DNA from: Methylobacteriaceae bacterium
GTDB taxonomy: Bacteria; Pseudomonadota; Alphaproteobacteria; Rhizobiales; Beijerinckiaceae
Direction of reading: 5' to 3'
NCBI GenBank assembly: GCA_947444195.1
Contig: CANEZL010000008.1
Location: 1 to 64,000 of the forward strand
Length of the DNA: 64,000 nucleotides
Under the pieces are notes generated by a model. The model saw only the letters and a list, made by a program, of their open reading frames with translations. It was not told the DNA's origin and did not search any database. Numbering within the stretch: the first letter of the stretch is position 1; the number at the start of each line of letters is the position of its first letter. This document shows positions 44,093 through 64,000 of the stretch, piece by piece. A program made the translations under genes and the position numbers.

Positions 44093-44132
44093 CTTGCCCG
44101 CTCCCCGCTGACGCCGGGCGAATATTTGCCGG

Positions 44133-48487: not shown

Positions 48488-48526
48488 GCGGGTATGGCGG
48501 AACTGGTAGACGCGGGCGACTCAAAA
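48488..48526 (+). pseudogene. 5' fragment of tRNA-Leu(CAA), cut at the end of the anticodon loop
   Basis: GCGGGTA (acceptor 5' strand), TG, a D-arm (GCG...CGC around GAACTGGTAGA), G, the 5' anticodon strand GGCGA and the seven-base loop CTCAAAA are all in order. The following bases (AGGGG) cannot pair with GGCGA, and no variable loop, T-arm or CCA follows. The gene therefore stops exactly where a tyrosine recombinase would cross over. I read it as the host half of an attachment site (attL). Confidence 0.8.
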
Positions 48527-48594
48527 AGGGGTTTGTTTAGTTCTAGACGACTTTTTTCGGTTCCCGGGCGATAACAGGCACTTACGGCTGATCC

Positions 48595-48657
48595 GATCGG
48601 CTCTCCCGGAAAGCCTGAAAATCGGCTAGGAGCCACATAGGAGCCAAGCGGCTCGAC
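48595..48657 (+). other. Short spacer with repeated TAGGAGCCA between the two tRNA-Leu copies
   Basis: The 131 bp from 48527 to 48657 hold no ORF. They contain the tandem TAGGAGCCACATAGGAGCCA near 48627-48646, about 12 bp before the intact tRNA. I see no recognisable promoter; the repeat may belong to the recombination site. Confidence 0.35.
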
Positions 48658-48742
48658 GCGGGTGTGGTGGAATTGGTAGACGCGCCGGATTCAAAATCCG
48701 GTTCCGCAAGGAGTGTCGGTTCGAGCCCGACCACCCGCACCA
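48658..48742 (+). tRNA. tRNA-Leu (anticodon CAA), complete
   Basis: An 85-nt tRNA with acceptor GCGGGTG paired to CACCCGC, D-arm, anticodon stem CCGGA/TCCGG around TTCAAAA (anticodon CAA), a long class II variable arm (GTTCCGCAAGGAGT), a T-arm with GTCGGTTCGAGCCCGAC and an encoded CCA. It differs from the fragment at 48488-48526 at several positions, so it is not a simple duplicate. It probably replaces the interrupted gene. Confidence 0.95.
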
Positions 48743-48841
48743 CCTGGTACTTCACGATCACCGTCTATCGTGCGTGAGGTCTAGCCGGAGAACCAATTCT
48801 CCCCTCCGGCCGGTTCCAAGACCGCAGTACTCTTGAGACTG

Positions 48842-49753
48842 CTAAATGTCTGCCTGCCAACCGTCCCCCTGCGCCGTCATCTCGCGCAGGAAGTCGACGA
48901 ACGCCCGTACGGTTGGCGACAGTTCACGGCGGCTTGGATAGACAACCGAGACGCCGACCGGAGGCATCGACCATTCGGGCAAGATGCGAACAAGTCGGCC
49001 AGCTTTTAAGTCGGGCCCGCAGAGATAGGCGGAAATAACGCCAATACCGGCATCCTTGCGAACAAGATTGTGAATCGTGAGCGCGTCATTGATGCTGATC
49101 TTGGGGGTGAGCGGAACTTCGGCCTTCTCACCTCCGCGCGTCATAGTCCAAGTCCGTGCGCGGCCGTCACGGCCCGGCATCTCGATGCAATCATGCGCGG
49201 AGAGGTCGGTTGGAGTCCGCGGCAGCTCCCGGTGTTCGAGGTAGCCCGGCGAGGCACACATATAGCGAGGCAAGCTCCCCAGCTTGGTTGCGATCAGGGA
49301 GGAATCTCCGATCGGCCCCATCCGGATCGCGACGTCGATCCGCTCCTGAACGAGCTCGGCTTCGCGGCTCGTCAGATCGAGGGAGATTTCGACCAGCGGA
49401 TAACGCCGCCTGAATTCCGGCAGGATCTCCGAGAGGATGTTGATCCCGAAGCCGATGCCTGCGCTCACGCAGAGCAGGCCGCGCGGTTCGCCGGCAAGGC
49501 CGCTGACTAGGTCCATTGTCGCGTCGATGTCGGACAGCTGCGCGATCGAACGCTCGAGCAGCAATTGTCCCGCTTCGGTCATCACCACATCGCGTGTCGT
49601 GCGCTGAAGAAGCCGAATTCCAAGCGACTCCTCCAGGCGCGCAACGCACCTGCTGACGGTTGACTTAGGCATCGCCAGAGCCTGTGCGGCCTTGGAGAAG
49701 CTGCCGAGAGAAGCAACGCGCTCGAAGATCCTCAAATCGTTCAAGTCGATCAT
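48842..49753 (-). CDS. LysR family transcriptional regulator
   Basis: A 303-residue LysR-type regulator. The N-terminal winged HTH is MIDLNDLRIFERVASLGSFSKAAQALAMPKSTVSRCVARLEESLGIRLLQRTTRDVVMTEAG, with the PBP-like ligand domain after about residue 90. It is divergent from the nine-gene cargo operon, the classic arrangement for a LysR activator of the adjacent genes. The start codon overlaps the arm of the inverted repeat ATGGA-TTG-TCCAT-AAC-ATGGA (49752-49772), so it probably represses itself. Confidence 0.93.
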   Translation of the reverse strand: MIDLNDLRIFERVASLGSFSKAAQALAMPKSTVSRCVARLEESLGIRLLQRTTRDVVMTEAGQLLLERSIAQLSDIDATMDLVSGLAGEPRGLLCVSAGIGFGINILSEILPEFRRRYPLVEISLDLTSREAELVQERIDVAIRMGPIGDSSLIATKLGSLPRYMCASPGYLEHRELPRTPTDLSAHDCIEMPGRDGRARTWTMTRGGEKAEVPLTPKISINDALTIHNLVRKDAGIGVISAYLCGPDLKAGRLVRILPEWSMPPVGVSVVYPSRRELSPTVRAFVDFLREMTAQGDGWQADI

Positions 49754-49772
49754 GGATTGTCCATAACATGGA
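49752..49772. promoter_or_regulatory. LysR-type T-N11-A operator candidate
   Basis: TCCAT-AAC-ATGGA (49760-49772) is a perfect inverted repeat with the T-N11-A form of LysR boxes, and a further ATGGA sits at 49752-49756. It lies at the LysR start and 140 bp before the NmrA-like gene. Confidence 0.55.
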
Positions 49773-49912
49773 ACAGTGATCCCAGCGAGGGGAACGATCT
49801 ATTCCGCACCAGAAGAGTTTTTAGGGGCGGAACCAATCGGGAGACGCGCCATGGCGCACCTGGTCGCTGGAAGCCCTTCTGCACGTACGTCGGCTCCGTC
49901 AGGAGGCCGATG

Positions 49913-50758
49913 ATGCCGCACACGGTTCTCGCATTTGGCGCTTCGGGCAAGTTCGCGGGTCATGTGGTGCCGGCGCTGAAGGCACGAGGCCTCCGGGTTC
50001 GCGGATTCGTGCGCGAGGACAAGGAAGCCGATACGGCTCGGGAGCACGGCGCCGATGAGGTCGCGCTGGGCGACCTCACCGATCGGCAAAGCATCGAACG
50101 AGCGCTCGACGGCATCGACGGTGTCTTCTACATAGCACCTGCCTTCATGCCCCAAGAGGCGAAGGTGGGCCGCGGTGTCGTCGAGGCTTGCCGTGCCGGA
50201 GGCGTCAAGCGCTTCGTCTTCTCCTCCGTGATCCACCCGGTGCTGAGCGGCCTGTCGAACCACGCCGCCAAGGCGCCCGTCGAGGAGGCGCTCCTCGATA
50301 GCGGCATGACCTATGTGCTGCTGCATCCGGCACTTTACTTCCAGAACTATCGCCAGTCGTGGAGGAAGGTGGTCGAGACCGGCGTGCTCGCGGAGCCCTG
50401 GTCGGCCGACACGCGCTTCAGTCGGGTAGACTATCGCGACGTTGCCGAGGTCGCCGCCATCGCATTCTTCGAGGATCGGCTCGACTACGGGACGTTCGAA
50501 CTGTGCTCGGATGGTTGGCTGGATCGCCACGACGTCGCGGCCCTCATCGGCAAGGCTCTCGGCCGCGAGATCCGGGCGGAGCGGATCGATCCTGACACGC
50601 TCGGGGACGACGCGAAGCCGATGCGTCCGATGTTCGACCATTACGAGCATGTCGGTCTGCGCGGTAGTCCGCTGATCCTGCGGGCCATTCTCGGGCGCGA
50701 GCCGCGGCGGCTCGAAGCCTTCTTCGCCGAACTGGCTGGCGACAGCGGAGATCGGTGA
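49913..50758 (+). CDS. NmrA-like NAD(P)-binding protein
   Basis: A 281-residue atypical SDR of the NmrA/HSCARG group, possibly a redox-sensing NADP-binding protein or a quinone reductase. It starts MPHTVLAFGASGKFAGHVVPAL, where GASGKFAG is a Rossmann GxxGxxG, with ALDGIDGVFYIAPAFMPQEAKVGRGVVEACRAGGVKRFVFSSVIHP following. No YxxxK catalytic pair is obvious. AGGAGG six bases upstream supports ATG 49913 over 49910. It is the first gene of the cargo operon and overlaps the next start by 4 nt. Confidence 0.88.
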   Translation: MPHTVLAFGASGKFAGHVVPALKARGLRVRGFVREDKEADTAREHGADEVALGDLTDRQSIERALDGIDGVFYIAPAFMPQEAKVGRGVVEACRAGGVKRFVFSSVIHPVLSGLSNHAAKAPVEEALLDSGMTYVLLHPALYFQNYRQSWRKVVETGVLAEPWSADTRFSRVDYRDVAEVAAIAFFEDRLDYGTFELCSDGWLDRHDVAALIGKALGREIRAERIDPDTLGDDAKPMRPMFDHYEHVGLRGSPLILRAILGREPRRLEAFFAELAGDSGDR

Positions 50759-52416
50759 AGATGGTCGACGTCAACGTCCAGCCGTTCGAGATCGAGACGC
50801 GGACCCGCCACGGCGACATGGTCCGCGCCGACGTCTACCTGCCCGCCGGCACAGACGGGCCGGTGCCCGTGCTGCTCGGCGCCTCGCCCTACCAGAAGGC
50901 GTTACGCCGTCTGCCGCCGGTGCCGTCGGTGTTTCCGTTCATCGAATACGGTCCGATGCAGCTCTATCTCGATCAGGGCTATGCCTATGTCGCGATGGAC
51001 GTGCCCGGCATGGGCCGCTCGGAAGGCATCTGGGATCCGGTCAGCCGCGCCGAGGGCGAGGCGATCCACGACATGATCGAGCATGTCGCACAGCAGGACT
51101 GGGCCACCGGCCGGGTCGGCATGATCGGCATGAGCTATTATTGCTGGAGCCAATGGAACGCGGCGCGCACCCGGCCGCCGTCGCTCAAGTGCCTCGGCGC
51201 GTTCGACGGTGCGACCGACATGTACCGCGACTGGATGTACCAGGGCGGCATCCCCATCCAGGGCTTCCTCAACTCCTGGCTCTACGGCTCAGTCCTCCTC
51301 CAGCACATGGCGAAAGACCTGTCGCTAGCCGATCACGGCCGCGGTGACGTGCTCAGTCGGATGTACGAGCATCCGTTCGACGATGAGTGGCAGCGCCGGC
51401 GGTCGCCCTTCTGGGAGCTGGACCAGGTTGACATCCCCGTCTTCTCGATCGGCTCGTGGGGCAAGGCGGCGCTGCACCTGCGCGGCAACTTCGAGGGGTT
51501 CCGGCTCGTCAAAGGTCCAAAGCAGCTTCTGATCGTCGGTGCGCAGAGCTTTGCCGAGACGCAGCGATTGTTCTTCGAGGAGGACTTCCACCGCACCGAA
51601 CTGCTGCCCTGGTACGACCATCACCTCAAAGGTCTCGAAACCGGCGTGATGGACCGCCCGAAAGTTCGCTTCTTCGTCCAGGGCGAAGCGAAGACGCATG
51701 CGGCGCCGGACTGGCCGCCGCCCGACGCGTTCGTCTCCGAGCTCTTCCTGAATGGCGCCAGGAGCGGCCATGAAGAGTCGCTTAACGATGGTTCGCTGAC
51801 AGACGCGGCGCCGGCCGCCGACGGCGGCGCGACAAGCTGGAGCTATCCCGATCCGAAGTGGATGGCGGGCGTGACGACGCTCGACCGGCAGGGCATGCCG
51901 CACCATACCGCCCGCGTCGTCACCTTCACGACGGCGTCGTTCGAGCGCGACCGCGAGTTCACCGGCCAGGGCGTGCTGCACCTCTTCGGCTCGTCTGACC
52001 AGACCGATATGGACATTGTCGTCAAGCTCTCGCTGCTGCCCGAGGGCGAAGGCAAGCCGCCCTTCGTGAAGGTCACGCAGGGCTGGCTGCGCGCATCGCA
52101 CCGCACGGAGGATCCGGCGCTCACCACCGAGCTGCGCCCGTTCCTCAAGCACGACCGCGCCGAGCCGATCGAACGGGGCACGGTGTACGAGTTCCGCATC
52201 GAACTGCTGCCGATGTCGGTGCTCGTGCGGAAAGGCGAGCGGCTCCGCCTCGAGATCAGCAACTGGGAGTCGGCGATCACCGAGGCGCCGATGACGCACT
52301 GGTACGGCCAGAAGGTCGGCACCGACACCTATCATCATGACGCCGCCAGTCCCTCGCGCCTGCGCCTCCACGAGCGGCCGCGCGGCTCCCTTGCTGCAAA
52401 GGAGACCCAAGCATGA
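50755..52416 (+). CDS. CocE/NonD family hydrolase (X-Pro dipeptidyl-peptidase S15-like)
   Basis: A 553-residue serine hydrolase of the CocE/NonD family, which includes cocaine esterase, glutaryl-7-ACA acylases and X-Pro peptidases. The nucleophile is S127 in GMIGMSYYCWSQWNAA; MDVPGMGRSEG and GAFDGATDMYRDWMYQGG follow the family pattern. The C-terminal jelly-roll (ELRPFLKHDRAEPIERGTVYEFRIELLP, RLEISNWESA) is also present. The GTG at 50755 overlaps the NmrA stop by 4 nt; ATG 50761 is an alternative. It ends in a 4-nt overlap with the SDR gene. Substrate unknown. Confidence 0.9.
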   Translation: MKMVDVNVQPFEIETRTRHGDMVRADVYLPAGTDGPVPVLLGASPYQKALRRLPPVPSVFPFIEYGPMQLYLDQGYAYVAMDVPGMGRSEGIWDPVSRAEGEAIHDMIEHVAQQDWATGRVGMIGMSYYCWSQWNAARTRPPSLKCLGAFDGATDMYRDWMYQGGIPIQGFLNSWLYGSVLLQHMAKDLSLADHGRGDVLSRMYEHPFDDEWQRRRSPFWELDQVDIPVFSIGSWGKAALHLRGNFEGFRLVKGPKQLLIVGAQSFAETQRLFFEEDFHRTELLPWYDHHLKGLETGVMDRPKVRFFVQGEAKTHAAPDWPPPDAFVSELFLNGARSGHEESLNDGSLTDAAPAADGGATSWSYPDPKWMAGVTTLDRQGMPHHTARVVTFTTASFERDREFTGQGVLHLFGSSDQTDMDIVVKLSLLPEGEGKPPFVKVTQGWLRASHRTEDPALTTELRPFLKHDRAEPIERGTVYEFRIELLPMSVLVRKGERLRLEISNWESAITEAPMTHWYGQKVGTDTYHHDAASPSRLRLHERPRGSLAAKETQA

Positions 52417-53141
52417 ACAGCGATCGCATTGTCGTCGTGACCGGCGCCTCGGGCGGAATGGGCAAGCTCGTCGCCGAGCGGTTCCTCGCGAACGGCGATA
52501 CCGTGATCGCGACCGACACTAGCAAGGACGCGCTCGCCAAGCTCGCCGCCGATCCCAGGCTGGCGACGATCGCTGCCGACGTGTCCAAGGAGGACGACTG
52601 CCAGGCCGTAGCCGACCTCGCACGCGAGAAGGGCGGCCGCGTCGATGTGCTCGTCAACGTAGCCGGCTGGTTCCCCGTCCAGCCGTTCGAGGAGGTGAGC
52701 GCCGACGATTTCCGCAAGGTGATCGACATCAATCTCACCGGCACCTTCCTCATGATCAAGGCGGTATGGCCGCTGATGAAGGGGCGTGGCTGGGGCCGGA
52801 TCGTCAGCGTCGGCTCGGCATCGACCTTCGAAGGCGTTCCCGACCAGATCCACTATGTCGCCGCCAAGGCGGGTCTGTTCGGCCTGTCGCGCTCGCTCGC
52901 GCGCGGCATGGGCGAAGAGGGCGTGACAGTGAACGTCGTGACTCCGGGGCTCACCAGCACGCCGGCGGTGAAGAAGAGCATGCCCGAGGAGATGATCAAG
53001 CGCTCGGTCGAGGCGCGCGCGCTCAAGCGCGAAGAGCAGCCGGAAGATCTCGTCGGCGCGATCTTCTTCCTGGCATCGCCCGACGCGGATTTCATCTCCG
53101 GTCAGACGATCAACGTCGACGGCGGAAAGCATATGCTGTGA
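52413..53141 (+). CDS. Short-chain dehydrogenase/reductase
   Basis: A 242-residue classical SDR. The NAD(P) motif is VVTGASGGMGKLVAERF; the catalytic residues are S-Y148-x3-K152 in HYVAAKAGLFGLSRS, with Ser earlier in VGSAST. The sequence VNVAGWFPVQPFEEVSADDFRKVIDINLTGTF is typical of 3-ketoacyl reductase-like SDRs. It starts at ATG 52413, overlapping the previous stop by 4 nt (ATGA), and ends with a GTGA overlap into the small membrane protein. The substrate is not inferable. Confidence 0.93.
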   Translation: MNSDRIVVVTGASGGMGKLVAERFLANGDTVIATDTSKDALAKLAADPRLATIAADVSKEDDCQAVADLAREKGGRVDVLVNVAGWFPVQPFEEVSADDFRKVIDINLTGTFLMIKAVWPLMKGRGWGRIVSVGSASTFEGVPDQIHYVAAKAGLFGLSRSLARGMGEEGVTVNVVTPGLTSTPAVKKSMPEEMIKRSVEARALKREEQPEDLVGAIFFLASPDADFISGQTINVDGGKHML

Positions 53142-53572
53142 GCCCCGTCGCCCGCCTCCTAACCGCACGGGCCTTGCTCGTCGCCGGCCTCGGCGTCGGG
53201 CTCCTAAGCTGGCGCGAAACCGCCGGTCACGTCGGCAGCCCAGATTTCCTGGTTGATCGTTACCCGCTCGGAGCGACGCATGCCTGGTATCACGCCTTTC
53301 GTGAGGCGTGCGGGGATGTCGTCAAAATGGCGGTGTTCCTGCTGATCTTCTTCGGTCCGCCGCGGTGGCGCACGCCCTTTGCCTGGTGGACCGTGCTGAT
53401 CCTCATGCTTGGCTATTACGCGCCGTTCTGGATCGGCGAGCCGTTCCTCCCCGCGCTCTCCGCCCCGAACCTTCCCGCGGAGGTCATCCACGTCGCGATG
53501 GCGGCGCTCTCCTTCGCCGCCCTCATCGTTGCGCGCCCCTCGTTCGTCACTCCTGCGGAGCTCGTCCCATGA
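53138..53572 (+). CDS. Small four-helix membrane protein of unknown function
   Basis: I do not recognise this 144-residue protein. It starts at GTG 53138 (VSPVARLLTARALLVAGLG), overlapping the SDR stop by 4 nt, and its stop overlaps the Old Yellow Enzyme start (ATGA). Four TM segments are seen: LLTARALLVAGLGVGLLSW, VVKMAVFLLIFFGPP, PFAWWTVLILMLGYYAPFW and VIHVAMAALSFAALIVA. No catalytic motif is visible. Tight coupling on both sides supports a real gene in the same pathway, perhaps a transporter-like or membrane anchor component. Confidence 0.7.
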   Translation: MSPVARLLTARALLVAGLGVGLLSWRETAGHVGSPDFLVDRYPLGATHAWYHAFREACGDVVKMAVFLLIFFGPPRWRTPFAWWTVLILMLGYYAPFWIGEPFLPALSAPNLPAEVIHVAMAALSFAALIVARPSFVTPAELVP

Positions 53573-54654
53573 CGGATCTCTTCTCGCCGGTCGAGTTGCT
53601 CGGCCTGACGCTTCCCAACCGCATCTTCATGTCGGCCATGACCCGCACCCGCGCGCGCGAGGACGGCGTGCCGACCGATCTCATGCGCGACTATTACGTG
53701 CAGCGCGCGAGCGCCGGGCTGATCGTCACCGAATGCACGCAGGTCTCCGATCAGGCGCACGGCATCATCCGCTGCCCGGGCATCCACCGCGACGATCAGG
53801 TCGCCGGCTGGCGCAAGGTCACAGACGCGGTCCATGCCGCCGGGGGCCGCATCGTCTGCCAGATCTGGCACTGCGGCCGCGTCGCTCATCCCGACATGCG
53901 CGGCGGGGCGCTGCCGGTGGCTCCAACTCCGATCCCGGCCGAGGGCAAGTTCTTCCTGCCGACCGGCGAAGCGGACTTTCCTACGCCGCGCGAACTCGGC
54001 CTGGAGGAGATCGCGCCGATCGTCGAGGATTTCGCCTCCGCGACCCGCAACGCCAAAGCCGCCGGATTCGACGGGGTCGAGCTGCACGGCGCCAATGGCT
54101 ACCTCCACGACCAGTTCCTGGAAGACGGCAGCAACCGGCGCACCGACGGCTATGGCGGTGCTGTCGCCAACCGCGCGCGGCTGATGGTCGAAACAGCCGA
54201 GGCCATGATCGCGGCCTGGGACCGGGGGCATGTCGGTATTCGCCTGTCGCCGGCGAGCACGCTCTACGGCATGAAGGACAGCGACAAGCGCGCCACGTTC
54301 GGCCACGTGATCGAGGCGCTGGACGCGCTCAAGCCGGCCTATCTCTGCCTGCTCGATCCGAACGAGAAGGATCGCAAGACCGAGCAGGTCAAGGACGTGC
54401 TCGAGGCATTCCGCGGCCGCGTGTCGGTGCCGCTGATCGGCAATACCGGCTTCGACAAGGCCAAGGGCAATGCCGCTCTCGCCGCCGGCGAGGCCGACGC
54501 GATCGCCTTCGGCGTTCCCTTTCTCGCCAATCCCGACCTCCCCGAGCGGCTCCGCCGCGACGCGCCGCTCAACGCCCCCGACAAGGCGACCTTCTACGGC
54601 GAGGGACGGGAAGGCTTCACCGACTACCCGTTTCTCAATTCCGCGAACGCCTGA
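53569..54654 (+). CDS. Old Yellow Enzyme family alkene reductase
   Basis: A 361-residue FMN-dependent ene-reductase (NemA/OYE type), which reduces the C=C bond of alpha,beta-unsaturated carbonyls or nitro compounds with NAD(P)H. FMN- and substrate-binding motifs are LGLTLPNRIFMSAMTRTRA, IVCQIWHCGRVAHP and ELHGANGYLHDQFLEDGSNRRTDGYGG, with H173 and N176 placed for carbonyl binding, and LIGNTGFD for the FMN phosphate. The length is normal. It is coupled to the small membrane protein by a 4-nt overlap and precedes the isochorismatase gene by 10 bp. Confidence 0.95.
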   Translation: MTDLFSPVELLGLTLPNRIFMSAMTRTRAREDGVPTDLMRDYYVQRASAGLIVTECTQVSDQAHGIIRCPGIHRDDQVAGWRKVTDAVHAAGGRIVCQIWHCGRVAHPDMRGGALPVAPTPIPAEGKFFLPTGEADFPTPRELGLEEIAPIVEDFASATRNAKAAGFDGVELHGANGYLHDQFLEDGSNRRTDGYGGAVANRARLMVETAEAMIAAWDRGHVGIRLSPASTLYGMKDSDKRATFGHVIEALDALKPAYLCLLDPNEKDRKTEQVKDVLEAFRGRVSVPLIGNTGFDKAKGNAALAAGEADAIAFGVPFLANPDLPERLRRDAPLNAPDKATFYGEGREGFTDYPFLNSANA

Positions 54655-54664
54655 GGAGGTCCTG

Positions 54665-55258
54665 ATGGTCCCGCATTTTACACCTGACGCCGCCGCGCTG
54701 CTGCTGATCGACTACCAAGTCGGTACGCTCCAGCTCGCCAAGACCAACCCGGCCGACGTCGCACTGCGGAACGCGATCACGCTCGCCAAGGCAGCGCTCG
54801 CCTTCAAGATGCCGATCGTCGTCACCGCAAGCCAGGAGGACCGCATTCAGGGTCGCATCGACGAGCGGCTTCAGCATGTGATCCCCGACGCGTTCGAAGC
54901 GCGGGTCAAGCGCCAGGGCATCGTCGACGCGTGGAAGGATCCGAACTTCAAGGCGGCCGTGCAGAAGACCGGCCGCCGTCAGCTCATCATGGGCGCGATC
55001 ACCACCGACATCTGCCTGGTGTTCCCGAGCATCAGCGCGGTCGAGGACGGCTATGAAGTGCAGGCGGTGATGGATGCCTGCGGCTCGCCGTTCGAGATCA
55101 ACGAGGCGATCTCCCGCGAGCGGTTGATCGCTGCGGGCGTGCACATGACGGTGACCAACACGATGGTCGCCGAGCTGGTGCAGGACTGGAGCACGCCGCA
55201 GGGCATGGAGCTGGTGCAGCTGCTCTTCGCCGCGGCGCCGATGCAGCCGGTGGAGTGA
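54665..55258 (+). CDS. Isochorismatase-like (cysteine) hydrolase
   Basis: A 197-residue isochorismatase-superfamily protein. The predicted catalytic triad includes D16 (LLLIDYQVGTL) and the nucleophile C117 in GAITTDICLVFPSISA, with the cis-peptide region between them. These enzymes hydrolyse amides, N-carbamoyl compounds or vinyl ethers; the particular substrate is unknown. GAGGAGG lies a few bases before the ATG. The stop codon is shared with the ATG of the next gene (TGATG), so it sits in the middle of the coupled cargo operon. Confidence 0.92.
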   Translation: MVPHFTPDAAALLLIDYQVGTLQLAKTNPADVALRNAITLAKAALAFKMPIVVTASQEDRIQGRIDERLQHVIPDAFEARVKRQGIVDAWKDPNFKAAVQKTGRRQLIMGAITTDICLVFPSISAVEDGYEVQAVMDACGSPFEINEAISRERLIAAGVHMTVTNTMVAELVQDWSTPQGMELVQLLFAAAPMQPVE

Positions 55259-56175
55259 TGATCGCCATGGTCGAGAAGGCACGGATCGAGGGACTGCGCA
55301 GCGAGACCGTGACGGTCGACGGCGTCCGGCTGCACTACTGGATCGGCGGTCCGGAAGACGGTCGGCCGGTGCTCTTGTGGCACGGCTTTCTCTCGACCGG
55401 CTTTGCTTGGCGGGATGTTGCGCCGGAGCTCGCCAAGGCCGGCATGGCGGTGCTGGTGCCCGACATGCGCGGCTTCGGCGACAGCGACAAGCCGGATGGC
55501 ACCAAAGGCTATGACGCCCGTGCGCTCGCCGAGGAGTTCCGCTCGCTCGTGGCGGCGATCGGCTTCGGCGGCGGTCAGCCCCTGATCGTCGCCGCCCACG
55601 ACATGGGTGCGCCGCCAGCGCTGATCTGGGCCGCCGACCATCCCGACGAGATCGCGGCGCTTCTCTACATCGAAGCCCCTGTCATGCTGGGCGACGTCCT
55701 GGGCAAGGTGATCGCCTACAACCGCCAGGCAATGGCGCAGGGGTCGATGTGGTGGTGGGTGCTGCCACTCGCGCCGGGCGTGCCGGAGCGACTGATCGTC
55801 GGCAACGAGCGCGCCTTCCTGACCTGGTTCTACGACGGCGCGACGGCGCGCCCGGAAGTGTTCGACGACAGAAGCGTCGAGGAATATCTGCGGACCTTCT
55901 CCGGTCGGACAGGCGTGCTCGGGGCGACGGGCGTCTACCGCGCCGCCTTCGACAGCATCGATCAGACCGAGCCGCTCAAGGTCGACAAGGTCGATGTGCC
56001 GGTGATCGCGATCGGCGGCGCCAAGGGCCTCGGCGATAAGGTCGGCGAAGGCGTCGCCCGTGTGGCCGAGAGCGTGTCGACGGAGACGGTCGAGAATTGC
56101 GGGCATTTCGTGCCTGAAGAACGGCCCGATGTCGTGATCCGCCACATCTGGGCGATCGCCGCGAAGCTTCCCTGA
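55258..56175 (+). CDS. Alpha/beta hydrolase, epoxide hydrolase/dehalogenase type
   Basis: A 305-residue alpha/beta hydrolase with an Asp nucleophile: the elbow is VAAHDMGAPPAL, giving D115 rather than Ser. HGFLSTGFAWRD provides the HG oxyanion motif, and H283 in ENCGHFVPEERP is the catalytic His. Such Asp-nucleophile members are epoxide hydrolases or haloalkane/fluoroacetate dehalogenases. The N-terminus is ambiguous: ATG 55258 (chosen), GTG 55255 and ATG 55267 are close together. Its presence beside an OYE and a GST fits chemistry on reactive electrophiles. Confidence 0.88.
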   Translation: MIAMVEKARIEGLRSETVTVDGVRLHYWIGGPEDGRPVLLWHGFLSTGFAWRDVAPELAKAGMAVLVPDMRGFGDSDKPDGTKGYDARALAEEFRSLVAAIGFGGGQPLIVAAHDMGAPPALIWAADHPDEIAALLYIEAPVMLGDVLGKVIAYNRQAMAQGSMWWWVLPLAPGVPERLIVGNERAFLTWFYDGATARPEVFDDRSVEEYLRTFSGRTGVLGATGVYRAAFDSIDQTEPLKVDKVDVPVIAIGGAKGLGDKVGEGVARVAESVSTETVENCGHFVPEERPDVVIRHIWAIAAKLP

Positions 56176-56205
56176 CATCAATTTCAGCTGAAAGGAGTCG
56201 ATACA

Positions 56206-56754
56206 ATGGAGGATCACTCGATCACCGCCCGAGGAGACCAGGGGCCAATACCGGCGGACGATCCTGCCCGCAGCCTGACCGTGACCAACCCGGACGACCG
56301 GCAGGCGCGCCATCTCTCGGTCGTGGGCGACACGTACACGATCCTGGTCTCGGGCAAGGACACGCAGGGTCGATATTGTCTCATCGATATGCTGGTGCCC
56401 GATGGCAGCGGACCGCCGCCGCACCGCCACGATTTCGAGGAGATGTTTTCGCTGCTCGAGGGCGAGCTGGAGTTCACGTTCCGCGGCGAAACGCAGACGG
56501 TGAAGGCGCCGGCGACGGTCAACATCCCCGCCAACGCGCCCCATCAGTTCAAGAACGCTTCGGGCGCGACGGTCCACATGCTGTGCATGTGCACGCCTGC
56601 CGGGCAGGACGAGTTCTTCATGGCAGTCGGCGTTCCCGTCGAGAGCCGCGACGCGCCGCCGCCGAAGCTCAGCAAGGACGAGCAGGCCGCCAAGGGCAAG
56701 CTCGCGGAGGAGCTGGCGCCCAAATACAGGACCGAGATGCTGGATCGGGCATGA
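56206..56754 (+). CDS. Cupin domain protein
   Basis: A 182-residue single-cupin protein. The metal-binding motifs are PPPHRHDFEEMFSLLEGELEF (two His and a Glu) and PANAPHQFKNASGATVHML with the third His. AAAGGAG lies nine bases before the ATG. The final ~40 residues are charged (APPPKLSKDEQAAKGKLAEEL). It is probably a small-molecule-binding or dioxygenase-like enzyme, with the function not inferable. Its stop overlaps the GST start (ATGA). Confidence 0.88.
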   Translation: MEDHSITARGDQGPIPADDPARSLTVTNPDDRQARHLSVVGDTYTILVSGKDTQGRYCLIDMLVPDGSGPPPHRHDFEEMFSLLEGELEFTFRGETQTVKAPATVNIPANAPHQFKNASGATVHMLCMCTPAGQDEFFMAVGVPVESRDAPPPKLSKDEQAAKGKLAEELAPKYRTEMLDRA

Positions 56755-57392
56755 TGAAGCTCTTCTGGGGACCGCACACCTGCGCGATCGGCATTCACGT
56801 CCTGCTCGAGGAGATCGGCGCGGATTACGAAACCGAGAAGCTCGACGTGGCCGGCGGCGCGACCCACGCGCAGCCGTTCCTGGCGATCAATCCCAAGGGC
56901 AAGGTGCCGGTCTTGCTGCGGGGCGACGGCAGCGTGCTGACGGAGTTCGGCGCCATCGCGATGTGGCTGGCGCGGACCCATCCGGAGAAGTCGTTGCTGC
57001 CGACCGACGCGGAAGGCGAGGCGCGCACGATCGAGACTTTGGCCTATGTCGAAGGGACGATCCACGGCCAGGGCTTCGCGCGGCTTTTCATGCCCGAGAC
57101 GTTCGGGCCGCAGGACGTTGTGCACCAGGTGACGGGTCTCGGCTCACGTTCGGTAAAGGCGCAAGGTTTGGAGATCGTCGAGCGGGGCTTTGCCATTCTC
57201 GATCCGATGCTGGCACGCCACGACTTCGCCGCCGGGGATGCACTTACGATCGCCGACTTGGCCCTGTTCTATGTCGAGCGATGGGCACCGCAGAATGGGA
57301 TCACGCTGCCGATCAACTTGCAGCGTCACCTGGATAGCATGTTCGCGCGCCCGTCGGTGCATAAGGTGCGTCAGATCTGGGGCGAGCAATGA
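56751..57392 (+). CDS. Glutathione S-transferase family protein
   Basis: A 213-residue GST with an N-terminal thioredoxin-fold domain (MMKLFWGPHTCAIGIHVLLEEIGADYETEKL, and AINPKGKVPVLLRGDGSVLTEFGAIAMWLA with the SNAIL-like TEFGA motif that binds glutathione) and an all-helical C-terminal domain containing AGDALTIADLALFYVERWA. It ends the coupled cargo operon. GSTs here could conjugate glutathione to the reactive compound handled by the neighbouring reductase and hydrolases. The start ATG (56751) overlaps the cupin stop. Confidence 0.93.
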   Translation: MMKLFWGPHTCAIGIHVLLEEIGADYETEKLDVAGGATHAQPFLAINPKGKVPVLLRGDGSVLTEFGAIAMWLARTHPEKSLLPTDAEGEARTIETLAYVEGTIHGQGFARLFMPETFGPQDVVHQVTGLGSRSVKAQGLEIVERGFAILDPMLARHDFAAGDALTIADLALFYVERWAPQNGITLPINLQRHLDSMFARPSVHKVRQIWGEQ

Positions 57393-57474
57393 ATTACAGG
57401 AGTTACTCAGCGCTAAGGGTACTTGTGCTCTGCGTGTCGATGTGACGAATGCAATACAGCGATTACCATGAACC

Positions 57475-58383
57475 ATGGAACTGCGTCACCTACGTCACTT
57501 TGTAGTTGTTGCGGAAGAACTGCACTTTGCTCGTGCGGCAGACCGCCTTGGCATGGAACAATCGCCTCTTAGTCAGTCTATCCGGAATCTGGAAGCGCAG
57601 CTCGGAATCAAGCTTTTCCAGCGCACCACGCGCCGTACTTGGCTGACGCGAGCTGGCACGCGCTTCTACCGGGAGGCGAGGCGGATCCTGCGCGATGTCG
57701 ACGCGCTTACTGCGTCGGTGCGGCGCACGGACAGCGAGGAGCCGAACGCCGTCCGGCTCGCTTTGGGTGAGGACCTCGCGAGTGAGCCTTTTACGCGGTT
57801 GATGTTCGAACTCGAGCATCATCAGCCGAAGGTTGACTTGGAAGTTCGCGAGCTACTCCACACCGAAGCCGCCCGCTTGGTGCGCGACGGGGGCGCTGAC
57901 GTTGCGATCACTCTCAACCCAAGAGCAGAGCCCGATCTGATGCAGGCGCGGGGCTGGAGCGAGCCTCTCATCGTGGTGGCGCCAGCAGGGCATACGTTTG
58001 GTACTCGCAGCAAGATCAGCGTGCGCGACCTAGCCGATCAAACTCTGGCCTTGCCGCTACCAGCAGAGTGCCCGGGCTATTTGGTGCAGATTGAGGATTT
58101 GTTCGGTCGCCACCAAGTCAGGCCGGCAGATCGTCGCGACGTACGCCACTGGAACACCGCCGTCAGTTTTGCCGCTACTGGACATGCGATTGCCCTTTGT
58201 CCCGCTTCCATGGTGCATACCGCAAGCGCCGTGGTGACGCTCCCCATCGAAGAGGATGATGCAGAACTCGTCACTTGGATGCTCTACCGCGAGGGTGAGC
58301 CCTCGCCGGCTGTGTCGTTGGTGTTGGAGATCGCCGCCGAGGTGGCAGCTATTCCGCGCTCGTACCTGCCAGACGCGGCTTGA
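57475..58383 (+). CDS. LysR family transcriptional regulator (second)
   Basis: A 302-residue LysR-type regulator with an N-terminal HTH (MELRHLRHFVVVAEELHFARAADRLGMEQSPLSQSIRNLEAQLGIKLFQRTTR) and a C-terminal ligand domain. It resembles the CatR/BenM-like aromatic-responsive group in its MELRHLRHFVVVAEELHFARAA start. It follows the GST by 82 bp in the same direction and could control the cargo operon or a gene to the right. Its last ~100 nt overlap, on the opposite strand, the tail of the broken DUF2274 frame. Confidence 0.92.
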   Translation: MELRHLRHFVVVAEELHFARAADRLGMEQSPLSQSIRNLEAQLGIKLFQRTTRRTWLTRAGTRFYREARRILRDVDALTASVRRTDSEEPNAVRLALGEDLASEPFTRLMFELEHHQPKVDLEVRELLHTEAARLVRDGGADVAITLNPRAEPDLMQARGWSEPLIVVAPAGHTFGTRSKISVRDLADQTLALPLPAECPGYLVQIEDLFGRHQVRPADRRDVRHWNTAVSFAATGHAIALCPASMVHTASAVVTLPIEEDDAELVTWMLYREGEPSPAVSLVLEIAAEVAAIPRSYLPDAA

Positions 58384-58557
58384 GTCTTTCGGAACGCGCG
58401 ATCGCGATCCATGAACGTCGCCAGCATGTGCGGTATCAGCGCTGTCGCATCGACCGGCTCTCCGTAAGTGGATGCGAAAAGCTCAGCGTAACGGTCAAGA
58501 GCGGTCTTGACCGCGGCCGGAAGCGTTACGCTGAGCCGGACTGTCTCGGCCTTCGGC
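58284..58557 (-). pseudogene. DUF2274 gene, C-terminal fragment split by IS66
   Basis: Minus-strand frame AETVRLSVTLPAAVKTALDRYAELFA... then DATALIPHMLATFMDRDRAFRK is the DUF2274 domain found after trbI in P-type conjugation operons. The frame is interrupted on its 5' side by the IS66 insertion at 58558. Joined to the fragment at 61624-61660 without the IS, it reads as one continuous protein beginning MSEKLRLGPLPK followed by AETVRL. Its tail overlaps the LysR gene and may be unrelated sequence. Confidence 0.85.
58550..58557 (+). repeat. IS66 target-site duplication, left copy
   Basis: CCTTCGGC directly before the left inverted repeat; identical to 61624-61631. Eight base pairs is the duplication length made by IS66 elements. 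Confidence 0.95.
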
Positions 58558-58662
58558 GTAAGCGTGGCCTGCGGGCCGCCTTGCCCGTTTTGCCGTAGCT
58601 GGGATGTTTGTCGCCTTTGACGAGGGCGATAGCGGTGCGGGAAGTTTTCGGGTCCGAGACTG

Positions 58663-58684
58663 GTCATACGAGCGCTCGTATGAC
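58663..58684. promoter_or_regulatory. Perfect 22-bp palindrome over the tnpA start
   Basis: The sequence from 58663 to 58684 is its own reverse complement, centred on GAGCGCTC. The tnpA ATG (58680-58682) lies within it. A DNA-binding protein, perhaps TnpA itself, could use it as an operator. It may also be part of a ribosome-binding structure. Confidence 0.5.
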
Positions 58685-59048
58685 TGGTCGCGTGGAGGTG
58701 GTCGGCCGGGTGTCGGGCCGGCGGAGTTGGTCGGACGAGGAGAAGCTGGAGATCCTGGCCGAGGCGTTCCGGCCTGGCGTCCGGGTTCGCGATGTTCTTG
58801 AGCGGCGCGAGATATCGAGCGGGCTGGTGTATACGTGGCGCAAGCAGGCGCGGCTGGGCAAGCTGGGCGGCATAGCGCCCGCGCTGCCAACATTCGCCGA
58901 GGTGTGTGTGGCTGAGGTTCCTGCACCACAGCCGGCGACATCCACGCCCGGCCTCATCTGCATCGAATTGGCGGGTGGCGTGCGGGTGAGCGTGGACGGC
59001 TCGGTGGACGCCGGCGCGCTGGCGCGGGTGCTGTCGGTGCTGAGGTGA
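58680..59048 (+). CDS. tnpA: IS66 TnpA (OrfA-type HTH protein)
   Basis: The first IS66 ORF, 122 residues. The N-terminal HTH is RSWSDEEKLEILAEAFRPGVRVRDVLERREISSGLVYTWRKQARLG, typical of transposase OrfA proteins. The C-terminal part ends LAGGVRVSVDGSVDAGALARVLSVLR, as in IS66 TnpA. A TTG at 58608 would give a longer protein, but ATG 58680 fits the family better. TnpA of this type is needed for transposition in IS66. Its stop overlaps the tnpB GTG by 4 nt. Confidence 0.88.
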   Translation: MTGRVEVVGRVSGRRSWSDEEKLEILAEAFRPGVRVRDVLERREISSGLVYTWRKQARLGKLGGIAPALPTFAEVCVAEVPAPQPATSTPGLICIELAGGVRVSVDGSVDAGALARVLSVLR

Positions 59049-59392
59049 GTCCGACGCCGTTGCCGACGCGAGTGTTCCTGGCCTGCGGCGTGACCGACAT
59101 GCGCAAGGGCTTCGATGGGCTGGCGGTGCTGGTCCAGCAGGTGCTGCGCGAGGATCCGCATTCCGGCGCGCTGTTCGCGTTCCGGGGCAAACGCGGTCAT
59201 CTGGTCAAGCTGCTGTGGTTCGATGGCCAGGGGCTGTGCCTGTTCTCGAAGCGGCTGGACCGGGGCCGCTTCGTCTGGCCGGTGACCGCGACCGGCGCGG
59301 TGACGCTGACGCCGGCGCAGCTGTCGATGCTGCTGGAGGGCATCGACTGGCGCCGGCCCGAGCGCACGTTCGTGCCGACACTGGCGGGCTGA
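59045..59392 (+). CDS. tnpB: IS66 TnpB (Orf2 protein)
   Basis: A 115-residue IS66 Orf2 family protein, recognised from RVFLACGVTDMRKGFDGLAVLVQQVL, SGALFAFRGKRGHLVKLLWFDGQGLCLFSKRLDRGRFVWP and the ending TLTPAQLSMLLEGIDWRRPE. It is required for IS66 transposition in experimentally studied members, with no known catalytic activity. Translation starts at a GTG overlapping the tnpA stop (GTGA). Confidence 0.95.
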   Translation: MSPTPLPTRVFLACGVTDMRKGFDGLAVLVQQVLREDPHSGALFAFRGKRGHLVKLLWFDGQGLCLFSKRLDRGRFVWPVTATGAVTLTPAQLSMLLEGIDWRRPERTFVPTLAG

Positions 59393-59453
59393 AAACGGCG
59401 GTTTCGCGTGGCTTTTGCTCGCCCGTCGGCATGCGATCTGCTATGCAATTCTG

Positions 59454-60998
59454 GTGTCGGAAGCGCCCGTTTCCTCAGCTGATGTCATCGCGCGGATCGC
59501 CGCGCTGGAGGCTTCGCTCGCCCGGGCCAATGCCGCGCTCGTCGCCCGCGACCTGCTCATCGACACCCTGCGCGGGCAGATTGCCTGGCTACGGCGGATG
59601 CAGTTCGGCGCCTCATCCGAGAAGCTGGGCCGCGAGGTCGAGCAGCTCGAACTGGCACTGGAAGAGCTGGAAACCGAGCGCGATGTTTCCGCAGTCGAGA
59701 CTGCGGCACCCGAAGTAGCGCCGCGACCGGCACCGGTCCGCAGCCTGCCGGACCACTTGCCGCGCGAGGAAGTAGTCCATGAGCCGGCATCTGGTGCCTG
59801 CACCTGCCCGGACTGTGGCGGCATGTTGCGTCGCTTGGGCGTGGATACGCACGAGATGCTCGACGTCATGCCGGTCCACTGGCGGGTCGTGCGCAACGTT
59901 CGCCCCAAATATAGCTGCCGGGCTTGCGAGAAAATCGTGCAGGCACCCGCGCCGGTCAGCGCCGTGGCGCGGGGCAAGGCGACCTTCGCCACGCTGGCGC
60001 ATGTCGTCGTTTCCAAGTTCGACCACCATCTGCCGCTCTATCGTCAGGCCGAGATGATGGCGGCGCAGGGCCTCGACATCGACCGCTCCACCCTTGCCGG
60101 CTGGACCGGGCAGGCCGCAGTCCTGCTCGACCCGGTCGTCAGCCGTATCCGTGATGCTGTCTTGACCGCAGACAAGATCCATGCGGACGACACGCCGGTG
60201 CCGGTGCTCGACCCGGGCCGAGGCAAGACCGCGACCGGGCGGCTGTGGGTATACGCGGCCGATGACCGCGCGTCCGGCAGCACGGCGCCGCCCGCGACCT
60301 GGTATCGCTTCACACCCGACCGGACCGCCGCGCACCCGCAGACGCATCTCGCCGGCTTCCGCGGCTTCCTCCAGGCCGATGCCTATGCCGGTTATGACGG
60401 GCTGTACCGCAGCGGTGTCACCGAGGTAGCGTGCTGGGCGCATTACCGGCGCAAGGTGTTCGACCTGCACGAGCGCATCCCCACGCCGCTGACCACCGAC
60501 ATCCTCCAGCGCATCGGCGCGCTCTATGCCGTCGAAGCCGAGGTGCGCGACCAGCCACCGGATGTCCGGCACCGAGTGCGACAGGACCGAACCAAGCCGT
60601 TGGTCGGCGCCTTGCGCGAGGTGCTCGACGCTGCCCTTCGTCGCCTGTCGCCCAAGTCCGATATGGCCAAGGCCATCGCCTATGGCACCAAACGCTGGCC
60701 GGCACTGTGCCGCTTCCTCGACGACGGCCGCCTGGAGATCGACAACAACATCGCCGAGCGTGCCCTGCGCGGCGTCGCCGTTGGTCGCCGCAACTGGCTG
60801 TTCGCCGGCTCCAGGGCGGGCGGCGAGCGTGCCGCCGCGATCTACACCGTCATCCAGACCTGCAAGGCCAACAGCGTTGACCCGCAGGCGTACATCGCCG
60901 ACGTCATCGCCAGGGTCGCCGACGACTGGCCCGCCAGCCGCTGGGACGAGCTTATGCCGTGGAACTGGGCTCGCGAACCTGCCAGGCTGGCGGCATGA
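59454..60998 (+). CDS. tnpC: IS66 TnpC transposase
   Basis: The DDE transposase of IS66, 514 residues from GTG 59454. An N-terminal coiled coil (ARIAALEASLARANAALVARDLLIDTLRGQ) precedes a zinc-binding region (CTCPDCGG and CRACEKIV). The DDE residues are in HADDTPVPVLDPG (first Asp), QADAYAGYDGLYR (second Asp) and LEIDNNIAERALRGVAVGRRNW (Glu), the last being the IS66 signature. The start is uncertain because TTG 59415 is also open. It overlaps the passenger gene by 4 nt (ATGA). Confidence 0.95.
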   Translation: MSEAPVSSADVIARIAALEASLARANAALVARDLLIDTLRGQIAWLRRMQFGASSEKLGREVEQLELALEELETERDVSAVETAAPEVAPRPAPVRSLPDHLPREEVVHEPASGACTCPDCGGMLRRLGVDTHEMLDVMPVHWRVVRNVRPKYSCRACEKIVQAPAPVSAVARGKATFATLAHVVVSKFDHHLPLYRQAEMMAAQGLDIDRSTLAGWTGQAAVLLDPVVSRIRDAVLTADKIHADDTPVPVLDPGRGKTATGRLWVYAADDRASGSTAPPATWYRFTPDRTAAHPQTHLAGFRGFLQADAYAGYDGLYRSGVTEVACWAHYRRKVFDLHERIPTPLTTDILQRIGALYAVEAEVRDQPPDVRHRVRQDRTKPLVGALREVLDAALRRLSPKSDMAKAIAYGTKRWPALCRFLDDGRLEIDNNIAERALRGVAVGRRNWLFAGSRAGGERAAAIYTVIQTCKANSVDPQAYIADVIARVADDWPASRWDELMPWNWAREPARLAA

Positions 60999-61597
60999 GC
61001 GCCGAAACCGTTGCCCGCCTGCACCTCGTCCTGGACAACATCGAACCCGCCATCTGGCGCCGGCTCGACGTGCCGGTCACCGCCAGCCTCAAGATGCTCC
61101 ACGATGTCGTCCAGGCTGCGATGGGCTGGGAGAACTGTCATCTCTGGCACTTCGAGGCCGGCGACCACCGCTACGGCGTGCCGGACCCGATGTGGTCGGA
61201 AAGCGGCATGGCGGCCGCCAAGAACGTGAAGCTCGCCGCCCTCCTCGACCGGGGCATGAAAGAACTCGTCTACACCTACGACATGGGCGACGACTGGCGG
61301 CACACCATCACCGTGGAAACGGTCGGCCCCGGCGAGCCTGACGTCAAATACCCGCGCTTCGTCGCCGGCGAACGGCGCTGTCCACCCGAGGATGTCGGTG
61401 GCTTGCCCGGATACGAGATGTTCCTCGACGCCATGGGCGACCCCACTCACGAGGAACACGACCGACTGCGCAACTGGTATGGCGGCCCTTACAACCCTGA
61501 CGACATCGACGAACGCTTCACCCGGCGCGCCGTCGCCGCCATCGCCATCCGCCGCCATGCTGGCAAGCTCGCCTACCAGAAGAGCCGGCCGCAATAA
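60995..61597 (+). CDS. Plasmid pRiA4b ORF-3-like passenger protein
   Basis: A 200-residue member of the IS1096/TnpR-like pRiA4b ORF-3 family, seen in VARLHLVLDNIEPAIWRRLDVP, LHDVVQAAMGWENCHLWHF, YTYDMGDDWRHTITVETV and CPPEDVGGLPGYEMFLDAMGDPTHEEHDRL. Its function is unknown. The ATG overlaps the tnpC stop by 4 nt and its own stop is adjacent to the right inverted repeat, so it travels inside the IS. It might modulate transposition or be a neutral passenger. Confidence 0.88.
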   Translation: MSAETVARLHLVLDNIEPAIWRRLDVPVTASLKMLHDVVQAAMGWENCHLWHFEAGDHRYGVPDPMWSESGMAAAKNVKLAALLDRGMKELVYTYDMGDDWRHTITVETVGPGEPDVKYPRFVAGERRCPPEDVGGLPGYEMFLDAMGDPTHEEHDRLRNWYGGPYNPDDIDERFTRRAVAAIAIRRHAGKLAYQKSRPQ

Positions 61598-61623
61598 CAA
61601 GGCGGCCTACCGGCCACGCTTAC
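61598..61623 (-). repeat. IS66 right inverted repeat
   Basis: The complement of 61598-61623 matches 58558-58583 at 23 of 26 positions and starts GTAAGCGTGGCC. Confidence 0.95.
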
Positions 61624-61660
61624 CCTTCGGCAACGGGCCGAGCCGCAACTTCTCACTCAT
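61624..61660 (-). pseudogene. DUF2274 gene, N-terminal fragment
   Basis: From ATG 61660 the frame reads MSEKLRLGPLPK, the standard DUF2274 beginning, then runs into IS66 and meets a stop within the right inverted repeat. GGGAGGAGG precedes the ATG. The ATG overlaps the trbI stop by 4 nt (ATGA). With the fragment at 58284-58557 it makes one intact gene. 61624-61631 is the right target-site duplication (CCTTCGGC). Confidence 0.88.
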
Positions 61661-62988
61661 CGACCTCCTCCCGAGGTTCTCGACGCCGCCCCATACGGCC
61701 TTAGTACGAGGTCCTTGTTGACGATCACGCGCACCGGGAAGCCGGGCCGTACTGTTAGAGTCGGCTGGACGTTGAGATTGCGGCGCGTAATTTGCTGACC
61801 GACTTGGTTGGCGCTCTCCTGCGCGCTTCGGCCGGTCGCGACGACCACCGTATCGTTACCATCAATCGAGCCGCGATTGCCCGAGCCGAGCTCGGCGCCG
61901 ACGCCGAGCAGGGTGGACAATGCCGCGCCAGCGAGCAGCTTGCCCCAGTGATTTTCCGTTTCGTCTTCGAGCCCCGCGTACCCGCGCGGGTCGGTGCCTG
62001 GCAGCCGATCAAGTGCGATCGAGGAACCGTCAGGCATGACGAGACGCGTCCAGACGAGCAGGACGCGACTCTGACCGTAGGCGACCTGAGCATCGTAGGT
62101 GCCAAGCAGGCGCGAGCCCTGCGGGATCAGCAGCGTCCCGCCAGTGACGGTGTCGTATACCGCCTCGGTTACAGTGGCGATCGCCTGGCCGGGAAGGTCG
62201 GAGTTGAGCCCCGTCACCATCGCAGCCGGGATGATTGTCCCAGCCATGACCTGGTACGGCGAGGCTGGTGTCTGGATGCGACCGCTCGCGTAGATCTTGG
62301 TGTCGGTGGGCGCGCCGAGAAACGCGCTTTTCCGGTCCTGGCCATTCTGGGTGGAGGCCTCGTCTTGGCGCTCGGACGAGCCGGGCAGCGGCGCGAATGG
62401 TCCCCGCTGTGGCGCGTCGGTCAGGCCGGCGGTCTCAACAGCCACCCCCTGCTCGCCGCGTGTCCGAGTCTGGACGAAGAGCCCGCCGCGCGCCGCGGCC
62501 TCCGCTTCCTGACGCAACCGCTGCAGTTCGGCGAGCCGGGCCTGCTCCTCCGGGCTGGGGCCGGTCGGTCCGGGCACTGCCGGCGCCGCGGCCATGGGCG
62601 GGACGGCGTTCTGCTGCCCCGACGAGAGGATCGGCCGGCCGAGGTCGCCGGGCAGTGGAGGCCCGAGCTGCGGCACACCGGGCGGCGCCGCCGGTGGGAT
62701 CGCGCCGTAGTCGTTGGGCAAGCGATTGAGACCCTCGGCGACGGGCTTGCGCTCGGTCGAGTAGAGTTCCTCGGGCGCCTTGCCGCCGTTGTGGTTGGTC
62801 GACAGTGCCCAGATGGCCAGGCCGCCAATCACCATCGAAGAGACTGAGCCTAGCGCGATGAGAGCGCGACGGGACAAGCGGGTCACGGGACGCGGCTGGG
62901 CGCGCAGCTCCAAGCGCTCCGGCGCGATCTTCGGCGCGGCTACCGCGTCAGGCGCGGCCGACGCTTCAGGCGGCGGGACCGTGCTCAT
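61657..62988 (-). CDS. trbI: Conjugal transfer protein TrbI (VirB10-like)
   Basis: A 443-residue VirB10 homologue that spans from inner to outer membrane in the mating-pair secretion channel. A single N-proximal TM helix (RALIALGSVSSMVIGGLAIWALS, ~45-65) is followed by a Pro/Gln-rich periplasmic segment and the C-terminal VirB10 beta-barrel domain (PYQVMAGTIIPAAMVTGLNSDLPGQAIATVTEAVYDTVTG, IPQGSRLLGTYDAQVAYGQSRVLLVWTRLVMPDG). Its start overlaps the trbG stop by 4 nt and its stop overlaps the DUF2274 start. The C-terminus ends GFPVRVIVNKDLVLRPY, complete. Confidence 0.95.
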   Translation of the reverse strand: MSTVPPPEASAAPDAVAAPKIAPERLELRAQPRPVTRLSRRALIALGSVSSMVIGGLAIWALSTNHNGGKAPEELYSTERKPVAEGLNRLPNDYGAIPPAAPPGVPQLGPPLPGDLGRPILSSGQQNAVPPMAAAPAVPGPTGPSPEEQARLAELQRLRQEAEAAARGGLFVQTRTRGEQGVAVETAGLTDAPQRGPFAPLPGSSERQDEASTQNGQDRKSAFLGAPTDTKIYASGRIQTPASPYQVMAGTIIPAAMVTGLNSDLPGQAIATVTEAVYDTVTGGTLLIPQGSRLLGTYDAQVAYGQSRVLLVWTRLVMPDGSSIALDRLPGTDPRGYAGLEDETENHWGKLLAGAALSTLLGVGAELGSGNRGSIDGNDTVVVATGRSAQESANQVGQQITRRNLNVQPTLTVRPGFPVRVIVNKDLVLRPYGAASRTSGGGR

Positions 62989-63974: not shown

Positions 63975-64000
63975 GCTGGGTCTCCTCATGACCCGCTCGA

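Follow-up and report, generated by a model that had tools for sequence, protein, structure and literature searches.

Integration of a mobile element into a tRNA gene normally reconstitutes that gene, as set out in reviews (PMC8371274). Conventional tRNA-targeting islands and integrative conjugative elements (ICEs) of this kind share with the element described here an integrase, a crossover in the anticodon loop and a displaced 3' half at one end, but they reconstitute the tRNA whereas this element does not. A closer parallel is tRNA-dependent lysogeny, shown experimentally in actinobacteriophages (Guerrero-Bustamante and Hatfull 2024, PMC10865867, available to us in part), in which a short core is used, the gene is not rebuilt and the phage carries a tRNA of the broken isotype; phage Gaia, for example, uses tRNA-Leu-CAA with an 8-bp core (PMC10865867). 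Prophages of S. meliloti are also described, in the available part of PMC11476347, as breaking a host tRNA-Leu, here tRNA-Leu(UAG), and carrying a foreign isoacceptor as replacement. The present locus has these features in common with both systems. It differs from the phages, for which the tRNA requirement is experimental, in being a conjugative-type element and not a temperate phage, and from the S. meliloti prophages, which concern two strains and the UAG anticodon, with no loop alteration described in the portion of that paper at hand. The word 'conjugative' does not occur in the text of PMC10865867, and among the papers listed in searches of the open-access literature, none was seen to assign this role to a conjugative element or to an intron-bearing substitute. 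The principle is already known from actinophages (PMC10865867); what is new is that the family is of conjugative type and that its substitutes carry changes in the recombination core.

The window, by which we mean the whole 64,000-nucleotide stretch analysed, comprises bases 1-64000 of a contig of 154,603 bases in a draft assembly (4.83 Mb, 77 contigs, 98.5% complete). On its forward strand, a tRNA-Leu 5' half is observed at 48488..48526; it extends to the last anticodon-loop base, after which AGGGG stands in place of the required TCGCC, with no anticodon-stem pairing. The missing 3' half is on the same contig but outside the window, at 98739-98784, 50.2 kb farther right. The two halves pair, and when joined they fold into an 85-nt tRNA-Leu(CAA) with the acceptor stem GCGGGTA/TACCCGC and the anticodon stem GGCGA/TCGCC. 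Integration leaves the tRNA gene un-rebuilt because the two junctions have in common only the 7-bp anticodon loop, the core CTCAAAA (left copy 48520..48526, forward strand; right copy 98732-98738). The feature of a tRNA rebuilt at one junction is absent, the left junction alone not folding as a tRNA, and that of a short (7-bp) common core inside the tRNA gene without rebuilding on integration is present. The lack of a tRNA fold at the left junction also rules out an ordinary island that rebuilds its tRNA. An intron inside the broken gene itself was likewise ruled out, the 3' half lying 50 kb away beside an integrase; the absence of an Rfam intron match in the window carries little weight here, as the introns of relatives are also missed at the same threshold. 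The 17-bp repeat AGGAGCCACATAGGAGC, at 48628..48644 (forward strand) with a second copy at 98583-98599, lies near both element ends and is perhaps an arm-type integrase site, an inference; a similar motif is repeated in the left ends of related elements.

An intact tRNA-Leu(CAA) with encoded CCA is observed at 48658..48742 on the forward strand (ARAGORN; Rfam tRNA, 56.2 bits), starting 131 bp inside the left end of the element, and is the only tRNA that ARAGORN reports in the window. It has the same isotype as the broken gene, so that the element encodes a cognate tRNA, and with 65 of 85 positions identical to the host tRNA-Leu(CAA) it is, by this comparison, foreign to the host gene. A tRNA scan of the assembly returned 44 genes above cut-off. 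All ten tRNA genes longer than 80 nt were identified (five tRNA-Leu, four tRNA-Ser and one tRNA-Tyr), the tRNA-Leu anticodons being GAG, CAG, UAG and UAA in addition to the CAA of the element. No second intact tRNA-Leu(CAA) was found in this 98.5%-complete draft, leaving the substitute as the only copy observed. The genome also yields two weak tRNA matches, one a 5' part resembling a tRNA that leads into intron-like sequence (L041, G000:C23) and the other an isolated tRNA 3' part (L042, G000:C31). The original prediction, that a complete 5' half of a host tRNA-Leu(CAA) is followed by non-pairing sequence and that a foreign whole tRNA-Leu(CAA) about 130 bp away replaces the disrupted gene, is borne out by these results as well as by the recurrence in relatives reported below; the 3' half and the integrase that it placed at the right end are both there, and further tRNA-Leu(CAA) genes, which would have spoken against it, are missing from the assembly.

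Genomes of the same genus were inspected for the state of the insertion site. Among the 58 others searched, 54 have an intact tRNA-Leu(CAA) by pattern (55 of 59 when this genome is included, its own match being the substitute). When 30 same-genus loci were aligned against the joined empty site, 17 showed no break over the whole span between the upstream flank and the tRNA end, junction included, with 73-80% identity. To judge from these alignments, an unbroken tRNA-Leu(CAA) occupies the insertion site in relatives without the island; these relatives have a single unbroken gene at the site and not the two-copy arrangement that would have contradicted the original prediction.

The element has a length of ~50.2 kb; its left part occupies 48520..64000 of the window and it continues to contig position 98738. 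A tyrosine integrase of 467 aa with an arm-binding domain is encoded on the reverse strand at 97151-98554, beside the right junction and transcribed away from it, and we infer that this enzyme made the junctions. Within the window, the reverse strand carries trbG at 62985..63989 (TIGR02775, 267.6 bits, above cut-off) and a trbI-like conjugation gene at 61657..62988 (NCBIfam PRK13831, 207.8 bits, below the cut-off of 386). Two libraries were scanned with 10 proteins each, mostly the same proteins and only part of the genes of the element. TraG, TrbB, TrbG and ParA scored above the NCBIfam cut-offs, an RlxS-like relaxase and the TrbI-like protein below them, and one further protein matched the Pfam RPA family as a replication initiator; no phage structural protein was found among the proteins scanned, conjugation proteins being present instead. 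Integrase, relaxase, coupling protein and type IV secretion genes are all present, with the reservation just given for the relaxase and TrbI. Because relaxase, coupling-protein and Trb genes are present, gene content suggests that the element is integrative and probably conjugative; excision and transfer, and the notion that it still moves, are inferred. By its Trb/RlxS/ParA/RepA make-up alone, the element is reminiscent of the Tn4371-like ICE family, and we take the open frames at 58608-60998 inside it to resemble IS66-type transposition genes. Upstream of the element, the window contains a suhB/mmgR small RNA at 44026-44101 (72.4 bits).

The same layout is observed across a clade of related integrases. 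The integrase matches at E 1e-80 in nine of 298 same-family genomes, its own counted; from public proteobacterial genomes the best 80 of 102 integrase loci were kept. At 55 of 59 loci with an integrase at least 54% identical, a script found a tRNA-Leu 3' half that starts in the loop upstream of the integrase. One more such locus, L060, was labelled CAA by eye, its T loop having been missed by the script pattern, and at three of the 59 no tRNA-Leu 3' half was found. Both ends could be read in 17 elements, the present one included: all 17 have a split tRNA-Leu whose halves rejoin with the expected anticodon, none has a left junction that alone amounts to a tRNA, and in 16 of them a complete cognate tRNA-Leu lies about 130-200 bp inside. 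In the remaining one (G163) the left junction is without adjacent substitute, and a U32 tRNA-Leu(CAA) is found instead ~15 kb from its integrase; another genome, G431, also has a left junction without adjacent substitute, its U32 tRNA-Leu(CAA) being farther away. A left end was recovered by pattern in 19 of 25 further genomes searched, the remaining six giving no match. Of these 19 loci, 17 splice to tRNA-Leu(UAA), and 15 of the 17 also yield a rejoined host tRNA; four incomplete loci among the 19 (owing to a contig end, masked bases, a decayed host half and a pattern that matched the host half) were read by eye and have the order unchanged. By the patterns used, neither the 12 UAA genomes in the both-ends set nor the seven CAA genomes showed an additional intact cognate gene. 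The hairpin and T run seen in the left ends of several CAA relatives are absent from this element. Like the left junctions of G163 and G431, four plasmid-borne integrase relatives (L274, L275, L276 and L277), those examined of 121 records, count against the replacement reading, none of the four having a tRNA piece nearby.

These comparisons bear on the possibility that this is an ordinary tRNA-targeting island whose rebuilt left half was later lost, the intact tRNA being an unrelated second copy. Rebuilding is the usual outcome (PMC8371274, in its accessible portion), and a sister clade described below seems to rebuild, but a coincidence of this kind is hardly credible given that the layout recurs in many genera with matching anticodon and at similar distance, and that the left ends of related elements align between core and substitute. 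Although the counts are pattern-based and the cases share ancestry, breaking a tRNA-Leu while carrying a cognate substitute is, as far as sequence comparison can establish, a family trait of the integrase clade.

In the CAA-type substitutes that adjoin the break, position 32 is T in seven of seven cases (TTCAAAA versus CTCAAAA; G000, G015, G056, G063, G147, G400 and G477) and there is no intron, while the broken host genes have C32 in seven of seven. In the present element this first core base is at 48690 (T, forward strand), against C at 48520 in the broken host gene. The seven cases are not independent, one substitute type being common to five, and G163 and G431 were excluded for want of a substitute beside the break. 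C32 is found in 53 of 57 tRNA-Leu(CAA) pattern matches within the genus and a T32 gene in 13 of 397 family genomes, comprising six tandem cases and, for the rest, remnants, displaced or solitary genes. A Fisher test for U32 (p 5e-7) is illustrative only, owing to shared ancestry and the counting of the present element's substitute on both sides. Two U32 tRNA-Leu(CAA) genes, L207 (G338) and L261 (G431), adjoin tRNA-Gly sequence and are perhaps carried by a different element. One same-genus genome (L282, G147:C23:433500-453499) has a broken C32 gene and a U32 substitute, but the 119 kb that remain before the contig ends yielded neither an integrase (tblastn, E 1e-5) nor, by pattern, a 3' half; it is perhaps a decayed element with the tRNA kept.

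The retention of such genes bears on whether the substitute functions at all. It could be silent or dispensable, with tRNA-Leu(UAA) reading UUG and the broken gene tolerated; UUG can perhaps be read by that tRNA through wobble, and when the site was scanned for promoters and terminators, no promoter-like match turned up ahead of the substitute, and no terminator either. Against this, the substitute has an intact cloverleaf with CCA, whole substitutes are retained beside the break in the seven CAA-type cases, and that of G147 persists without a detected integrase or 3' half over those 119 kb, so that we consider a silent substitute improbable. That it is transcribed and charged is nevertheless an inference. 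The original prediction had further held that it is the essential UUG decoder and that loss of the element is tied to cell survival. The former inference is weaker, because tRNA-Leu(UAA) wobble may read UUG.

Overall, we are confident that the best explanation is an element of ~50 kb that splits the host tRNA-Leu(CAA) and replaces it with a whole substitute, although no expression, splicing, excision or transfer data stand behind the mechanism. We propose that the tyrosine integrase would use the 7-bp identity to recombine attP with the chromosomal tRNA-Leu(CAA) gene at its anticodon loop. Because attP lacks a tRNA 3' half, integration would leave two dead tRNA halves 50 kb apart, and the element-borne tRNA-Leu with the same anticodon would take over from the broken gene. 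Precise excision would rejoin the halves and, we infer, restore the host gene. Addiction is not implied for this reason; of the predicted link between element loss and survival, what remains is that imprecise loss would be harmful. Whole-gene replacement would also let one attP serve very different host tRNA-Leu genes, because no chimaeric tRNA must function.

UAA-type substitutes retain C32 and carry an intron of 205-253 nt between U34 and A35, which interrupts the core. In silico, 29 of them were spliced to tRNA-Leu(UAA), 12 from the both-ends set and 17 from the further genomes; three more are partly visible by eye (L262, L245 and L254), and no intronless UAA substitute was found among the related-element loci examined. 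For L152, the intron matched RF00028 (group I) along the whole model at 37.8 bits (E 4.9e-8), short of the curated cut-off of 50, and Rfam group I gave no match at the gathering threshold in 12 UAA-type loci. The intron is not an element-only feature, an idea ruled out by four of 397 order-level genomes in which it occurs in a tRNA-Leu(UAA) without a broken half upstream (L270, L271, L272 and L273). These are apparently ordinary host genes, and hosts of this kind would offer no UAA-type target. Separately, an E. coli sequence (L278, NZ_AP018799.1 26765-32012) has the left arm of an element of this kind, with its intron-bearing tRNA-Leu(UAA), beside aac(3)-IId; L281 (NZ_CP032204.1 1087255-1092502) belongs to the same observation, the sequence having been inspected for L278 only, and the intron query matches 625 of 5426 E. 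coli genomes, with no match covering >80% of the query. A plasmid of Bradyrhizobium sp. ISRA443 also carries an intron-bearing tRNA-Leu(UAA) (L280, 1501-1784), at a distance of ~0.75 kb from trbI.

These two alterations raise the possibility that the substitutes of the clade are invisible to their own integrase, by U32 in the CAA types or, in the UAA types, by an intron that would be a self-splicing one of group I. Such an intron would act as an att-site shield: the DNA would lose the site, and splicing would make the RNA whole again. Without a shield, the substitute would offer the integrase another site for recombination <200 bp from the true one. The idea parallels the proposal of Randau and Soll for archaea (PMC4090602 and PMC3293823, in the parts available), according to which introns in tRNA genes prevent integration, in that a loop intron destroys the DNA attachment site and splicing restores the RNA. 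It differs in that theirs concerns host defence and protein-spliced introns, and the UAA-type relatives here have a putative group I intron in the element's own substitute. Neither U32 nor an intron in the substitute is discussed in what was available of PMC10865867. The shield is inferred and less certain than the replacement. Its grounds are two distinct changes that both hit the one core, together with logical need, and we regard the case for it as evenly balanced. Against it stand the occurrence of the intron in ordinary host genes (4/397 genomes) and the replacement tRNAs of phages Mollymur and Cheetobro, whose loop equals the presumed attP core and whose stem differs. As a general law, an altered core is ruled out by these two phages; the stretches fetched for LeBron, Rumpelstiltskin, Baudelaire and Snenia contain no tRNA-Lys and hence provide no test of it. 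U32 and the intron might instead evade anticodon nucleases of host defence, or reflect the donor lineage, with the integrase irrelevant. Phage tRNAs have been proposed to evade nucleases by anticodon-loop changes (PMC10264068, as far as available), solitary U32 genes exist, and the intron is found as a host gene in the four genomes above. A spliced-out intron, however, leaves the mature loop unchanged and hence gives the mature tRNA no protection, and both changes, one per isoacceptor, fall within the 7-bp core; we regard this explanation as a serious, if tentative, contender. Were the shield true, UUA decoding in the UAA types would depend on the splicing of a mobile-element intron.

The Gordonia phage Daredevil is described in the accessible part of PMC10865867 as integrating in tRNA-Lys-TTT without rebuilding it, with no tRNA of its own and with clear plaques. 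When used as a BLAST query, the left end of our element matched Daredevil beside its integrase (75% identity over 25% of the query). There, at L294 3871-4182, ARAGORN reports a tRNA-Lys(TTT) that is interrupted at 34/35 by a 238-nt intron, is unannotated in the record and lies ~150 bp from the motif taken as attP core; this intron matches Rfam group I only weakly (15.4 bits, E 0.36). Daredevil may thus be an independent instance of the design, in tRNA-Lys, but its clear plaques suggest that the tRNA does not function well in the tested host.

A quick tree of 83 integrases (of 90 integrase loci) places 56 in a Leu clade with top SH-aLRT support (48 UAA, six CAA and two unknown); the other 27 are associated with tRNA-fMet (15), tRNA-Lys (one) and unassigned sites (11). 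CAA targeting requires three changes on this tree. In the sister fMet clade, nine tRNA-fMet genes were found in eight of 11 genomes and all nine are intact, so that this clade seems to rebuild its gene as usual, although the genes were not each proven to be an element junction; a first tRNA-Met pattern had matched another tRNA and was discarded, the target being tRNA-fMet. L060 (CAA) and L062 (UAA) have close integrases with different targets and substitutes, and on this sequence evidence core and substitute seem to switch together.

Our results extend tRNA-dependent integration from actinophages to a conjugative-type family that occurs in alpha-, beta- and gammaproteobacteria and for which it seems to be the rule. 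They offer a simple reason for entry into very different hosts, in that the requirement would be a 7-bp loop and not half a tRNA that is compatible. Whether introns in tRNA genes prevent integration becomes directly testable, since a broken host gene and an intron-bearing substitute form natural pairs. Lastly, annotation readily overlooks tRNA genes that are split or contain an intron, and the decoder of a codon may reside on a mobile element.
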